NCBI RefSeq assembly: GCF_025165795.1
Contig: NZ_JAJAGO010000003.1
Span: forward strand, 496,001 to 560,000
Direction: 5' to 3'
DNA length: 64,000 nucleotides
Source of the DNA: Streptomyces gossypii
GTDB lineage: Bacteria > Actinomycetota > Actinomycetes > Streptomycetales > Streptomycetaceae
The notes beneath the pieces are model-generated. The model was given only the letters and a program-made list of their open reading frames with translations. It did not search any database and was not told where the DNA came from. Below, piece by piece: positions 7,085 to 56,390 of this stretch. Position numbers and translations under genes: made by a program. Position 1 is the first letter of the stretch. Each line of letters begins with the position of its first letter.

Positions 7085-7250
7085 TGAGGGCTGTCCCGTG
7101 ATCCCTGGTGGATCAGCGCGCGGCGTCAGATGCGGTGCTTCGCAAGGTGGAGGGGCGTCCTCATGCTGGGCGTGTCCGGGCGTTCCGGCAACGCAGCGAG
7201 GTGCCGTGGCTGTCGTCGTGCGCCCGCCAGGGATTACGGGACAGCCCTCA
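7085..7250. mobile_element. 166-bp MITE-like element, copy 1
   Basis: Two 24-bp terminal inverted repeats (7085-7108 and 7227-7250; one mismatch) enclose about 118 bp of non-coding sequence. A second copy of identical length lies in opposite orientation at 32572-32737. The ends begin TGAGGGCTGTCCCGTAA. The right terminus supplies the TGA stop of the neighbouring HATPase gene. No transposase is encoded, so it must be mobilised, if at all, by an enzyme supplied elsewhere. Confidence 0.85.
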
Positions 7251-27386: not shown

Positions 27387-27550
27387 CGTGGACCGCAGCT
27401 GTCGACCTGTCGGCGCGGGGTCGCGCGGAGGCGCTCGCCCAGCTCTTCCAGGAGCCCGTTCCCATGGCGGCCCTCGGAGTGGCCGGTCGTCCGGCGGAGC
27501 CTGAGACCGTCACGTAGGAGGAGGCGTGCGTACCGGGTGCCGGTGATCAT
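27383..27550 (-). CDS. Small ORF coupled at both ends inside the conservon, 55 aa
   Basis: The ATG (27550) overlaps the stop of the sensor-kinase gene as ATGA, and its TGA (27385-27383) overlaps the ATG of the DUF742 gene as ATGA. It therefore fills the gap exactly. The product is basic (many Arg) with a central GNGLLEELGERLRATPRRQ stretch. No roadblock/LC7 similarity was recognised, although this is where a roadblock gene would normally stand. It may be a remnant, a coupling ORF, or a real small protein. Confidence 0.5.
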   Translation of the reverse strand: MITGTRYARLLLRDGLRLRRTTGHSEGRHGNGLLEELGERLRATPRRQVDSCGPR

Positions 27551-29190
27551 TCAGCCCCCTCCTCCGGACGTGGACGGGCGGACGCGGGCGGGCCGCTGGG
27601 AGTGGACGGGGTGCCGCCCTGCCAGTCAGGCCCATCAGCCCCGTCCGGCCCGTCAACGCGTTCCCGTCCGGCGCGGCGGAAGCCGGCGAACCGTGCGCCC
27701 GACTCCTCGGGGGAGCGCGCCTCCCGCGGCTGAGCGGCGGGCGGGGTGGCCGGCGGACGCTGGGCGGCGGCCGGTTTCCGTACGGAGCGCCGCAGGGGCA
27801 GGCCGCTCTCCTCGTCCCGTACGGCGCCACCGTGCTCCGCCTGCGGCTCGTCCGCGCCCCTCGGGACGACGGGGACCTCCGGCGCGTCCTGCAGATCCTC
27901 TACGCCCCGCACGTCCAGGATGCCCTGCACGTCCCGCATGCGCTGCACGTGCCGGGGATGCCTCGGTTCCCGTACGGCGGCCGCTCTCGTCGGGGTGTCC
28001 GTGTCCGTGTCCGGGTGCGGATGGGTGATCAGCGCCTGCGGTATCCGCAGCAGGACGCCGGTGCCGCCGTGCGCGGACGGTCGGTAGGAGACCGTCAGGT
28101 CGTGTCTGCGGGCGAGCAGTCCCACCACGGTGAGCCCGAGCCGGGCGGCGGAGCGGGTGTCCGGTGCCACGGCACCTGAGTTGACCGCTTTCTGGGCGCG
28201 GCCGAGCGCCGCCTCGTCCATCAGCAGGCCGCCGTCCTCGACGGCGATGACCACACCGGAGGAGACCTCCTCCACATAGACATGGACCTCCGCTGTGGGC
28301 GGCGAGAACGTGGCCGCGTTGTCCAGCAGTTCGGCGAGTGCGTGCATGACACCCTCGGCCGAGTCCCCGTCGACTGCCGCGGTGCAGGTGGAGTGCAGCC
28401 GGACGCGCCGGTAGTCGTTGATCCGCCCCATCGCGCCGCGCAGGATGCTCTCCATCACGATGGGCTTGGCCCAGCGCCGTTCCGAGCGGGCGCCGGCGAG
28501 CACGGCGATGGAGTCGGCGAGCCGCCCGGTCTGTGCAGTGCGGTGGTCCAGCCGCAGCAGATCGCCCAGCACGTCGGCGTCGTCGTGCTGGTGCTCCATC
28601 TCCCGCAGGTCTGCGGCCATGCTGGTGGTGAGTGCCTGCGCCCGGCCCGCCGCGGTCGCGCAGGCGGCCATCGCCGTGGCCCGGGCGGTCTCGCTGCGGT
28701 GCAGCTCGGCGGCGAGCGTGCCGAGCACCCGTCGTTGCGCCGGGTCCGACGGTGCCGGGGATAAGCCGGCCAGCGCGGTGTCCGCCGAGGCTCCGCCACG
28801 CAGCCGCGTCACCAGGGCCGGTACGGTCTCTTCGGCGAACCGGAGCGTGCCGTCGCGGAGGGCGTCGGCCTCCGCGTGCTGGGCGGCGAGCAGGACGCGC
28901 AGGCGACGGCCGGCCAGGAGCTGCCAGGCGGCGAAGCCGACGGCGGCACAGAGCGCGAGCCCCGCCGCTCCGCTGCCCCAGGCGATTCCGGCCCTGGCCG
29001 ACTGCGGTGCCGCGTACACCGAGAGCAGGCAGGCGGGGGCGGTGACCAGCAGTGCGCAGAGTGCGGCGAGTGCGGTGCGGGGGCCGATGCCGGTTGGGCC
29101 ACCGTCGGCGCCGGTGATGGCGTGGGTGGGGGTGGGGGTGGGGGTGGGGGCTGGAACCGGGTCCGGGGACCGCGATGCGTCAGATGTCAT
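27547..29190 (-). CDS. Sensor-kinase-like ATP-binding membrane protein (CvnA-like)
   Basis: 547 residues. After a Pro-Thr repeat tail (about residues 10-25) there are two membrane helices (ALAALCALLVTAPACLLSVYA; GIAWGSGAAGLALCAAVGFAAW) with a short extracellular link and no extended nitrate-sensing domain. A helical dimer region (EMEHQHDDADVLGDLLRLDHRTAQTGRLADS) includes the family's H-x-x-x-x-x-x-L-x-x-LDH. An HATPase follows (VMHALAELLDNAATFSPP, VIAVEDGGLLMD, RLGLTVVGLLARRHDL, GGTGVLLRIP). The C-terminal 170 residues are disordered and Arg/Pro-rich. In conservons such proteins couple membrane sensing to a Ras-like GTPase; no GTPase is nearby here. Confidence 0.88.
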   Translation of the reverse strand: MTSDASRSPDPVPAPTPTPTPTHAITGADGGPTGIGPRTALAALCALLVTAPACLLSVYAAPQSARAGIAWGSGAAGLALCAAVGFAAWQLLAGRRLRVLLAAQHAEADALRDGTLRFAEETVPALVTRLRGGASADTALAGLSPAPSDPAQRRVLGTLAAELHRSETARATAMAACATAAGRAQALTTSMAADLREMEHQHDDADVLGDLLRLDHRTAQTGRLADSIAVLAGARSERRWAKPIVMESILRGAMGRINDYRRVRLHSTCTAAVDGDSAEGVMHALAELLDNAATFSPPTAEVHVYVEEVSSGVVIAVEDGGLLMDEAALGRAQKAVNSGAVAPDTRSAARLGLTVVGLLARRHDLTVSYRPSAHGGTGVLLRIPQALITHPHPDTDTDTPTRAAAVREPRHPRHVQRMRDVQGILDVRGVEDLQDAPEVPVVPRGADEPQAEHGGAVRDEESGLPLRRSVRKPAAAQRPPATPPAAQPREARSPEESGARFAGFRRAGRERVDGPDGADGPDWQGGTPSTPSGPPASARPRPEEGAE

Positions 29191-29375
29191 TTCTCACAGT
29201 CCTCATGCACAGGTCAGTTCCGGACGGCAAAAAACTCTGGCCAATACCGCATCAATATAGGCGAGTTGGCTGTGACGCAAGGGCGTCTCGGAGGGGAATG
29301 GCCTCCGAAAGTGGCTGACCGGGAGCGGAGGGTGACTCCGGCCACCCGACGGCTGGAGCCTGCCGGGTGGCAGGC

Positions 29376-29834
29376 TCAGCCTTCGATGTCCTCCTCGTCC
29401 GGTTCGTCCTCGCCCTCGACCAGCACCGGCGAGCCGTGGTGGGACCACACCTTCCAGCCGCCGTCCTCCGCCCTGCGGAAGACGTTGGTGGCCACCACCA
29501 GGCCGCCGACCAGTGGCCCCGCCGAGCCGTCCTCCTCAGCCGGGCCGCCGCTGAGGATGTTCTCCGTGCAGCTGACGAGCGCGGTGTCCCCGAGGACCGT
29601 GACCTCCACATCGGTGAGGAAGAACTGGATGTAGTCGGTGTTCGCCATGATCAGCGCGTAGGAGCGCATCACCTCGCCGCGCCCGGTGAGGACCGGCCAG
29701 CCGGGATGGACGACGCTGATCTCGTCGTCGAGCCACAGCTCCGCCAGGGCGTCGAGATCGCCGCGTTCCACCGCGTCGTAGAGCGCGGTGTTCGCCGCCT
29801 CGACGGCTTCGCCGTCCGCGGTCGCCCCGCTCAC
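29376..29834 (-). CDS. NTF2/SnoaL-like small protein
   Basis: 152 residues with the cone-shaped NTF2-like fold pattern: ANTALYDAVERGDLDALAELWLDDEISVVHPGWPVLTGRGEVMRSY at the start and WKVWSHHGSPV near the end; the tail is acidic. The GTG start overlaps the folP stop by 4 bases (GTGA), so it is translated with folP. Related 'nuclear transport factor 2 family' proteins sit beside folP in other Streptomyces. Enzymatic or accessory role unknown. Confidence 0.85.
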   Translation of the reverse strand: MSGATADGEAVEAANTALYDAVERGDLDALAELWLDDEISVVHPGWPVLTGRGEVMRSYALIMANTDYIQFFLTDVEVTVLGDTALVSCTENILSGGPAEEDGSAGPLVGGLVVATNVFRRAEDGGWKVWSHHGSPVLVEGEDEPDEEDIEG

Positions 29835-30691
29835 GCAGCGCCCTCGACGGCACGGGCGACGCGTACCGCGTCCGCGCTGGCGCGGACCTCGTGCACCCGG
29901 ACCGCCCAGGCGCCCTCACGGGCGGCCAGTGCGGTGACTGCGGCCGTGGCCGCGTCCCGCTCCCGGGCCGGGGGCGGGACGGTGGCCCCCTCGCCTGCGA
30001 GCACATCACCGAGGAACCGCTTACGGGAGGCCGCGACCAGGATCGGACGTCCCAGCTCGCCGCGCAGCCGGGACAGCGCGGCCACCAGTGCCAGATCGTG
30101 CTGGGCGCGCTTGGCGAAGCCGAGGCCCGGGTCGATGACGATCCGCTCCGGGGAGATGCCGCCGGAGACCGCATGATCCAGTGTTGCCCGCAGCTCCGCG
30201 ATCACCTCGGGGACGACCTCTCCGTACGCTGCTCGGTTGTTCATGTCGATCGACTGTCCGCGCCAGTGCATCACGACGAAGGGCACGTCGGCGGCTGCCA
30301 CCGCGCGGATCATGTCCGGGTCCGCCTGGCCGCCGCTCACGTCGTTGACCAGGACCGCGCCCGCCTCCACCGCCAGCTCGGCCACCGCGGCGCGCATGGT
30401 GTCGACGCTGACGCGCACGCCGTCCGCCGCCAGGCCGCGCACGACCGGCAGCACCCGGCGCAGCTCCTCCGCCTCGTCCACCCGCGCCGCGCCGGGCCGG
30501 GTGGACTCTCCTCCGACGTCGACGAGATCGGCGCCCTGGGCGACCAGATCCAGCCCGTGCTTGACGGCGGTCTCGACGTCGAACCACCGGCCTCCGTCGG
30601 AGAAGGAGTCGGGCGTGACGTTCACCACGCCCATGACCGCGCACCGGTCCAGCTCCGGCAGACCAGTCACCCGGCCACGCAAGGTCGTCAT
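29831..30691 (-). CDS. folP: Dihydropteroate synthase
   Basis: 286 residues. It joins p-aminobenzoate to dihydropterin pyrophosphate, the sulfonamide target step. Motifs: MGVVNVTPDSFSDGG, GADLVDVGGESTRPGA, VSVDTMRAAVAELAVEAGA, LVNDVSGGQAD, IVIDPGLGFAKRAQHDL, and the SRKRFLG pterin/phosphate loop. The ATG has no clear ribosome site and a -10-like TAGGCT lies 6 bases before it on the minus strand, so the transcript may be leaderless. folP faces away from folB and folK, whereas a single co-directional fol operon would be simpler. Confidence 0.96.
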   Translation of the reverse strand: MTTLRGRVTGLPELDRCAVMGVVNVTPDSFSDGGRWFDVETAVKHGLDLVAQGADLVDVGGESTRPGAARVDEAEELRRVLPVVRGLAADGVRVSVDTMRAAVAELAVEAGAVLVNDVSGGQADPDMIRAVAAADVPFVVMHWRGQSIDMNNRAAYGEVVPEVIAELRATLDHAVSGGISPERIVIDPGLGFAKRAQHDLALVAALSRLRGELGRPILVAASRKRFLGDVLAGEGATVPPPARERDAATAAVTALAAREGAWAVRVHEVRASADAVRVARAVEGAA

Positions 30692-30703
30692 GTCGCCAGC
30701 CTA

Positions 30704-30805
30704 GTGCTTCGCCGCACAGGTCCCGCGAGGGTCGGTGCGGCGTCGGATGGCCGTACCAGGCGTCACCAGGCGTCCACCCGCCGCAGGACCTGTGCGGCGA
30801 GGCAC
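30704..30805. repeat. 20-bp inverted repeat with 62-base spacer upstream of folP
   Basis: Arms at 30704-30723 and 30786-30805 match at 19 of 20 positions. The arm nearest folP overlaps the region between its -10-like hexamer and -35 position. The spacer holds a short direct repeat (CCAGGCGTC twice). The remaining intergenic sequence up to 31000 shows no gene. Confidence 0.8.
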
Positions 30806-31001
30806 CGAGTGGTGACCGCGGAGGGCGCAGCGGCGCATTCGCGCAGTGGCGCAGGAATGTGGTGCCGGTGCCGCGTGGTGCTCTCGTCCGGGAATGGTGG
30901 AGTGGCTCCAGGTGTCGAAGGGTAGAGGCCGGGAGCCGCGTGATCGCGCGTCGGTGTCCGGGCCGCGGACGCATACGGGCCGGACCCCCGCGGGCAGGGA
31001 C

Positions 31002-31023
31002 TGTCAGTGCCCGCAGGTAGATT
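31002..31023 (+). promoter_or_regulatory. PafBC/RecA-NDp-type promoter motif upstream of folB
   Basis: TGTCAGTG (31002-31009), exactly 8 bases, then TAGATT (31018-31023). This matches the tTGTCRgtg-N8-TAnnnT motif described for RecA-independent DNA-damage promoters in actinobacteria (later linked to PafBC). It is about 98 bases upstream of the folB start and oriented toward it. Confidence 0.55.
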
Positions 31024-31120
31024 CGACAGGTCAGCGTGCACCGTACGGTCCGCCGACCCGCCGACAGACAGACCGAAGAACCGGGATGACCGACCGGGAT
31101 TACCGACGGGAGTGATGCGC

Positions 31121-31480
31121 GTGGACCGCGTCGCACTGCGCGGACTGAGAGCCCGTGGGCATCACGGCGTGTTCGCGAGGGAACGTGAAGAGGGACAGAC
31201 GTTCATCGTCGACCTCGACCTGGGTCTGGACACCCGCCCCGCCGCCGCGAGCGACGATCTCTCGAAGACCGTCCACTACGGCATCGTGGCCGAGGAGGTC
31301 GTGGCCCTCGTCGAAGGTGAGCCCGTCGATCTGATCGAGACGCTCGCCGAGCGGATCGCCGAAGCCTGCCTCGCGCACGAGGCCGTCCGTGAGGTCGAGG
31401 TCGTCGTCCACAAGCCGGAGGCACCGGTCACCGTCCCCTTCGACGACGTGACCATCACTATCAAGCGGAGCCACGTATGA
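31121..31480 (+). CDS. folB: Dihydroneopterin aldolase
   Basis: 119 residues from GTG 31121, which has GGGAG 8 bases upstream; ATG 31115 is too close to that site. It cleaves dihydroneopterin to 6-hydroxymethyl-dihydropterin and glycolaldehyde. Family motifs are LRGLRARGHHGVFAREREEGQTFIVDLDLG (active-site Glu in REEGQ), KTVHYGIVAEEV and LIETLAERIAE, with VVHKPEAPV containing the conserved Lys. It overlaps folK by 4 bases (ATGA), so the two are translated together. Confidence 0.95.
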   Translation: MDRVALRGLRARGHHGVFAREREEGQTFIVDLDLGLDTRPAAASDDLSKTVHYGIVAEEVVALVEGEPVDLIETLAERIAEACLAHEAVREVEVVVHKPEAPVTVPFDDVTITIKRSHV

Positions 31481-32073
31481 CACCGAACAGCGACCCGACC
31501 GTGCAGCCGGTGCCCGCATCCGTGGTGCACCAGGTCGATGCGGCGGACACGACACTGAGCAATCCGCAGCGGGCAGTGATCGCGCTCGGCAGCAACCTCG
31601 GCAACCGCCTCGAGACCATGCAGAGCGCCGTCGACGCGCTGGCGGACACTCCCGGCCTGCGGGTCAAGGCGGTCTCCCCGGTGTACGAGACGGTGCCCTG
31701 GGGGGTCGAGCCGGGCAGCCAGCCCACCTACTTCAACGCGGTGGTGCTGATCAGGACGACACTGCCGCCCTCCTCGCTGCTGGAGCGCGGGCAGGCGATC
31801 GAGGAGGCCCTGGAGCGGGTGCGCGACGAGAAATGGGCCGCGCGCACCATCGACGTCGACATCGTGGCGTACCAGGACGTCGTCTCCGATGATCCGGTCC
31901 TCACGCTGCCGCATCCGCGTGCGCACGAGCGGGCTTTCGTGCTCGCCCCGTGGTTCGACATCGAGCCCGCGGCCGAGGTGCCGGGCCGAGGCGCGGTGGC
32001 CGACCTGCTGACCGCGGTGGGCAGAGAAGACGTCTCGCCGCGTGCCGACCTGGAACTGAGCCTGCCCGACTGA
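31477..32073 (+). CDS. folK: 6-hydroxymethyl-dihydropterin pyrophosphokinase
   Basis: 198 residues, ATG inside the folB stop overlap. Transfers pyrophosphate from ATP to make the folP substrate. HPPK motifs: IALGSNLGNRLETMQ, VYETVPWGV, FNAVVLIRT, and RTIDVDIVAYQD with the two metal-binding Asp, then LPHPRAHERAFVLAPW. The first ~30 residues are a non-conserved extension. It is followed 12 bases later by the DUF3180 gene. Confidence 0.95.
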   Translation: MTPNSDPTVQPVPASVVHQVDAADTTLSNPQRAVIALGSNLGNRLETMQSAVDALADTPGLRVKAVSPVYETVPWGVEPGSQPTYFNAVVLIRTTLPPSSLLERGQAIEEALERVRDEKWAARTIDVDIVAYQDVVSDDPVLTLPHPRAHERAFVLAPWFDIEPAAEVPGRGAVADLLTAVGREDVSPRADLELSLPD

Positions 32074-32085
32074 CGTTGGTGACCT

Positions 32086-32574
32086 GTGAGACAACTGCGA
32101 ATCAGGACACTGGCGGGGCTCTTCGCCATCGCCGGGGTCCTCTCCTGGGCCGGCGCCCGGATGCTGGACGCGCTGGGCTCGCTGCCCAGCGTGCCGGTCG
32201 AGGCGCCCATCGTGCTGACGGCCATCGCCGCGGTGCTGCTCGCCACGGCGCTGTCGCTGCGTTCCCGGCTCAAGGCGCAGCGGGAGCGGCAGCCGGGCGC
32301 GAAGGGCGTCGATCCGATGATGGCCGCGCGTGCGGTGGTCTTCGCACAGGCGAGCGCGCTGGTGGCCGCCCTGGTGTCGGGCATGTACGGCGGCACAGGG
32401 GTCTTTCTGCTGCTCAGCGAGATCGATCTGCCAGCCCGTGGCGATCAGGCGCTGTACGCCGGGCTGTCGGTGGCGGCCGGTGTCGCGGTCTTGGCGGCGG
32501 CGGTCTATCTGGAACGCGTGTGCAAGCTTCCGGAGGACGAGGACGACGACAACCCGACGGCGACGCCCGCCTGA
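32086..32574 (+). CDS. DUF3180 membrane protein
   Basis: 162 residues from GTG 32086. Four membrane helices are evident (LAGLFAIAGVLSWAGARML; IVLTAIAAVLLATALSL; AVVFAQASALVAALVSGMYGG; LYAGLSVAAGVAVLAAAVYLE), with the conserved KGVDPMMAARAVVFAQASAL segment and an acidic cytoplasmic tail (KLPEDEDDD). It habitually follows folK in actinobacteria; function unknown. Its TGA stop is the first triplet of the MITE at 32572-32737, so insertion may have trimmed or replaced its original end. Confidence 0.88.
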   Translation: MRQLRIRTLAGLFAIAGVLSWAGARMLDALGSLPSVPVEAPIVLTAIAAVLLATALSLRSRLKAQRERQPGAKGVDPMMAARAVVFAQASALVAALVSGMYGGTGVFLLLSEIDLPARGDQALYAGLSVAAGVAVLAAAVYLERVCKLPEDEDDDNPTATPA

Positions 32575-32737
32575 GGGCTGTCCCGTAATCCCTGGCGGGC
32601 GGAGGACGACAGTTACGGCACCTCGCTGCGTTGCCGGGACGCCCGGACACGCCCAGTATGAGGACGCCCCTCCGCCTTGCGAAGCACCGCATCTGACGCC
32701 GCGCGCTGATCCACCAGGGGCTACGGGACAGCCCTCA
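32572..32737. mobile_element. 166-bp MITE-like element, copy 2 (inverted relative to copy 1)
   Basis: 24-bp terminal inverted repeats at 32572-32595 and 32714-32737 (two mismatches). The reverse complement of the interior matches the element at 7085-7250 over its whole length with few differences. The left terminus provides the stop codon of the DUF3180 gene. Both copies are flanked by C on the left and G on the right, but no convincing longer target duplication is visible. Confidence 0.85.
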
Positions 32738-56368: not shown

Positions 56369-56390
56369 TGTCAGTGTCAGCGGGTAGGAA
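56369..56390 (+). promoter_or_regulatory. PafBC/RecA-NDp-like promoter motif upstream of clpC
   Basis: TGTCAGTG (56369-56376), 8 bases, TAGGAA (56385-56390). The upstream half is perfect; the -10 lacks the final T of TAnnnT. It is the same layout as the motif upstream of folB. Confidence 0.42.

Follow-up and report, generated by a model that had tools for sequence, protein, structure and literature searches.

We present here a candidate DNA damage promoter upstream of the folate genes of Streptomyces gossypii, located in a 64-kb stretch of DNA that was analyzed as a whole (the window). Positions 31002 to 31023 probably constitute a PafBC-type (RecA-NDp) promoter for folB-folK-DUF3180. Comparison among relatives makes it very likely that this promoter is of the PafBC type but labile, and its best reading is a nearly fixed basal core combined with a PafBC box that comes and goes. 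The promoter and the genes that follow it are listed below.

31002..31009, + strand: PafBC-type -26 box TGTCAGTG, an exact match
31010..31017, + strand: 8-bp spacer CCCGCAGG, of the form CYCGCRGG kept among relatives
31016..31025, + strand: conserved core GGTAGATTCG, including the -10 hexamer TAGATT at 31018-31023
31030, + strand: predicted transcription start, from start-codon positions at other sites in the genome
31121..31480, + strand: folB, dihydroneopterin aldolase (PF02152, E 4.1e-38), with a GTG start
31477..32073, + strand: folK, HPPK (PF01288, E 6.3e-40), with an ATG start and a 4-nt overlap with folB
32086..32574, + strand: DUF3180 gene (PF11377, E 2e-33), with a GTG start

The sequence-only reading had proposed a box, exactly 8 bases, and TAGATT at 31002-31023, directed at folB-folK-DUF3180. 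This arrangement was borne out, the motif being exact and all three genes being confirmed with Pfam. A search of both strands for TGTCRGTG-N(7-9)-TANNNT returned this site as the single exact match in the 64 kb, where 0.03 were expected, and exact matches arose in 3 of 100 shuffled windows. Relaxing the search to 2 mismatches gave 10 matches in the window versus 8.3 expected, so near matches within it carry little weight. One near match, at 56369-56390, lies approximately 285 nt upstream of the clpC ATG (56674), where the same motif layout had been claimed. The box TGTCAGTG and the N8 spacer are present there, but the hexamer TAGGAA has one -10 mismatch, the final T of TANNNT being missing. 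The clpC site is a weak parallel that does not reach the standard of the folB motif. No canonical -35 element was found at the folB promoter, either in a scan of 30800-31140, which returned no sigma-70-type sites, or in 100 core-bearing folB loci (see below), none of which matched at least 4 TTGACA positions at spacers of 15 to 19.

The genome (7,518,892 bases in 49 contigs) contains 39 exact TGTCRGTG-N8-TANNNT sites, versus 3 for a reversed-pattern control. When spacers of 4 to 12 were allowed, 44 matches were found (12 for the reversed control), 39 of which have a spacer of 8, and the geometry itself is therefore favored. The folB site is mid-range in score, with 15 of the 37 other sites scoring lower. 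A search for the conserved core as GCRGGTAGATTCG gave 9 genomic matches with up to 1 mismatch, versus 3 for the control, the sole exact copy being at folB. Each of 30 genus genomes, including this one, carries 17 to 68 sites, versus 0 to 3 for the control. Two sites in this genome (L017 and L019; G000:C4:87202 and C7:170440) lie with mfd in a 2,322-base stretch that is identical between two contigs, representing an assembly duplicate or a recent duplication, which leaves 38 nonredundant sites.

The first gene 3′ of each site was called mechanically from codon composition, and 32 of the 37 non-folB downstream proteins were scanned for protein families (5 of the 39 genes fell outside the scan). 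Repair, recombination, or replication family matches follow 18 of the 38 nonredundant sites, several of these matches being below NCBIfam cutoffs or from cut proteins. They comprise a RarA-like ATPase, RuvC, a PD-(D/E)XK nuclease, a RecD2-like protein, Mfd, a DEDDh exonuclease, Ogt, UvrB, Ung, exonuclease III, DnaX, Nth, RadA, RecA, a DinG/YoaA-like helicase, RecD2, a UvrD/PcrA-like helicase, and XseA. Other site-preceded genes encode ThyX, Cas3 and Cas5c (type I-C), DUF3375, YjbR, and AAA_16 proteins, and the remaining scanned downstream proteins include some with no family match. At 19 of the 39 sites, the called start codon lies 28 to 32 nt past the motif's first base, which is the pattern expected for transcripts beginning at the start codon (leaderless). 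The same distance fits the earlier proposal that folB transcription would start at about 31030. By this rule, taken from the other sites, folB would have a leader of approximately 91 nt, whereas many other sites in the genome look leaderless. ThyX is a thymidylate synthase that consumes methylenetetrahydrofolate. Since thyX is also preceded by the motif, this genome carries it at two steps of a single supply line (folB-folK and thyX).

The genome encodes PafB and PafC as two adjacent proteins, both with WYL and WCX domains and one with HTH_PafC, located after a Pup ligase gene and one intervening gene. In mycobacteria, single-stranded DNA activates PafBC, which then joins the housekeeping polymerase, with PafB reading the -26 element and PafC holding sigma domain 4 (PMC11804915), and the motif in M. 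tuberculosis is TGTCGG/TGTCAG/TGTCAC-N10-TA-N3-T (PMC8151990). The folB site is like the mycobacterial PafBC promoters in its box and spacing and in a -35 element not being needed (PMC8151990, PMC11804915). It differs from them in that the target is a folate operon and that the spacer and -10 exceed the box in conservation.

Conservation was assessed in a folB panel of 110 upstream regions, comprising this genome, 29 other genus members, and 80 loci with record titles (mostly Streptomyces, together with Streptacidiphilus, Kitasatospora, Peterkaempfera, and two records titled Streptosporangium and Microtetraspora). Of the 110 loci, 53 have an exact box (37 of the 80 titled loci and 15 of the 29 other genus members), 76 have one within 1 mismatch, and 34 are off by at least 2 mismatches. 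Among 22,000 shuffled 200-nt regions, none had an exact box and 7 had one within 1 mismatch. With identical upstream sequences counted once, 52 of 108 loci are exact and 23 are one off (75 of 108 in total), and the looser M. tuberculosis form, TGTCRG-N10-TANNNT, is present in 72 of the 110. Across a shared panel of at most 30 genomes, recA is preceded by the exact box in 30/30, ruvC in 27/29, folB in 16/30, thyX in 14/29, and radA in 12/28, and folB is therefore among the variable targets. No folP upstream region reached 7 of 8 box positions in the 76 of 80 titled loci with usable upstream sequence, after 3 that were too short and a lone match that was an artifact of a cut folP (L112) were set aside. 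Among non-Streptomyces actinomycetes, none of 59 genomes (taken from 132 with a folB match) reached 7 of 8 within approximately 300 nt of folB, a stretch that may often be coding in this outgroup.

The reading of 31002-31023 as a PafBC/RecA-NDp promoter, also made earlier from the window, is well supported at the level of sequence, since it fits the geometry, the genomic association with repair genes, the pafB and pafC genes, the missing -35 element, and the recurrence at folB. As an account of damage control it is partly supported, and folB appears to be a labile target, unlike recA, with an exact box in about half of the panel. We propose that DNA damage would activate PafBC through single-stranded DNA and that activated PafBC would let the housekeeping RNA polymerase use the -35-less folB promoter. 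PafB would read TGTCAGTG at -26 and the sigma factor TAGATT, with transcription starting near 31030. The box would overlie a nearly invariant core, CYCGCRGGTAGATTCG, as the probable source of basal expression, and PafBC control of folB would have been gained and lost among species. The purpose would be to supply, together with thyX, the folate needed to make dTMP and purines while repair proceeds. PafBC binding, damage induction, the start site, and the purpose at folB are what we infer from sequence comparison. The motif before the folate genes, here and in about half of the relatives, suggests that folate supply may be raised upon DNA damage.

The lability of the box raises the question of whether folB has mainly a constitutive, -35-less housekeeping promoter built on the extended core, with TGTCRGTG as a lineage-dependent extra under little or no PafBC control. 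Such an arrangement seems unlikely to us, and it does have points in its favor. The core, defined after inspection of the alignment as GGTAGATT or GGTAAATT no more than 200 nt from folB, occurs in 100 of the 110 loci and changes state 2 times on a rapidly built folB-folK tree with 110 rows. On the same tree, the exact box changes 23 times, at least 18 of which are forced by well-supported branches, and the one-mismatch box changes 16 times. In those panel rows that match 5 or more of the 8 box positions, the information content at folB is 1.74 bits per column for the spacer, 1.57 for the box, and 2.00 for the -10, the last value being partly fixed by anchoring on TANNNT. The spacer thus exceeds the box at folB, the reverse being found at thyX (box 1.73, spacer 1.39), ruvC (1.83 and 1.33), and radA (1.46 and 0.80). 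However, the box columns are themselves conserved well above their flanks (T79 G95 T86 C95 per cent in 96 rows), and elsewhere in the genome the same box and spacing are concentrated before repair genes. Moreover, recA, with its box in every genome of the shared panel, is conserved throughout (box 2.00, spacer 1.68) and likewise has a conserved spacer and -10. The conservation is most economically explained by the reading that we prefer, with a basal core retained for an always-needed cofactor and a PafBC box gained and lost by species.

We regard as very improbable that another activator or repressor acts on a partial dyad around the box, with GCGAGC-like arms, and that the PafBC likeness is secondary. 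By eye, several species show a partial inverted repeat on either side of the box, and conservation is moderate from -31 to -20 ahead of it; however, the arms are not fixed in sequence, and of 11 pairs tested, only 1 showed covariation above that of shuffled data (P = 0.043, uncorrected). That the motif is a chance match without function is barely credible, given the exact box at the orthologous place in so many loci and in none of the shuffled regions, although the 3 matches of the reversed control imply that a few of the 39 genomic sites may be due to chance.

Other candidate features around the motif were considered and rejected. A LexA/SOS promoter was not supported, CGAACNNNNGNNCG occurring within 300 nt upstream of folB in 3 of the 110 loci; a loose LexA scan of the window gave 1154 matches with up to 3 mismatches and was uninformative. 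An open reading frame begins at a GTG inside the motif (31007), and a coding extension from it was rejected because the distance between motif and folB varies among relatives by non-multiples of three. No structured RNA in the window matched at Rfam gathering scores. At the lax threshold, the matches in 30650-31250 were limited to microRNA models scoring under their cutoffs, which fell on a hairpin at 30704-30805, and to one match at chance level at 31046-31083.

The genes folP, a SnoaL-like gene, folB, and folK are colinear in 109 of 109 relatives, and the order ftsH-folE-folP-SnoaL-folB runs in a single direction throughout in six of them. In this window, by contrast, folP and its SnoaL-like neighbor are on the - strand (27550-30691), divergent from folB (31121, + strand), and a local inversion is therefore likely. 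With folP and the SnoaL-like gene divergent, the promoter here heads folB-folK-DUF3180 alone, and its box is exact. Beside the two divergent genes lies a HATPase_c gene for which no counterpart was seen in the flanks of the relatives. The hairpin at 30704-30805 is strong (24-nt arms, 92% complementary; z of -7.1 as RNA) and sits between the divergent folP and the folB promoter, close to the likely inversion breakpoint. A short element resembling a miniature inverted-repeat element is present in two copies (7088-7247 and 32575-32734) with inverted GGGCTGTCCCGTAATCCCTGG ends, the second copy lying directly 3′ of the DUF3180 gene.

RecA-NDp promoters have been described before recA of Streptomyces rimosus and before SCO6735, the latter being UV inducible (PMC5087735, PMC9411070). 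The folB site has the promoter type and genus in common with these; it differs in that folB-folK is a biosynthetic operon and in that its box varies between species. The Streptomyces LexA/SOS response, as outlined in a 2022 study of S. venezuelae, also places recA and ruvC under damage control but through a different box, tCGAAC-N4-GNNCGa (PMC9380542). The authors of that study wrote that, from an initial search, the PafBC motif of M. smegmatis seemed not to be conserved in S. venezuelae and that a RecA/LexA-independent response in Streptomyces is still to be shown (PMC9380542). Enrichment of the motif in the 30 genus genomes, among which S. venezuelae was not picked out by name, speaks against the former remark for the genus. 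Among the titles and abstract openings returned by a literature search, with subscription journals mostly outside it, none reported a PafBC regulon in Streptomyces or joined PafBC with folate genes, and no fol gene was named together with PafBC in the texts consulted.

We consider it an even call that Streptomyces possesses a complete PafBC regulon made up of tens of promoters, many of which are leaderless, including a folate-nucleotide arm (folB-folK and thyX) and, in this genome, sites before type I-C cas genes, and that the repeated switching on and off of the folB box over an unchanged -10 core represents regulon rewiring. Through folB-folK and thyX, the supply of folate and dTMP would be linked to the response to damage, and species with and without the box at folB offer a natural comparison. 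Motif enrichment in 30 of 30 genus genomes, together with the repair-gene sites found here, makes the RecA/LexA-independent response of Streptomyces testable on named promoters.

Two further groups of sites were observed. Exact PafBC-type sites precede cas5c and cas3 of the type I-C CRISPR system (L034 and L035; G000:C34:555163 and 558045). A search of 150 genus genomes found Cas5c in 5, and an exact site is near cas5c in 4 of the 5 loci, two of these 4 sites apparently being aimed away from cas5c. An exact PafBC-type site also precedes a DUF3375 gene (PF11855; L009:300-1849), a family that we take to be part of Wadjet-type defense.
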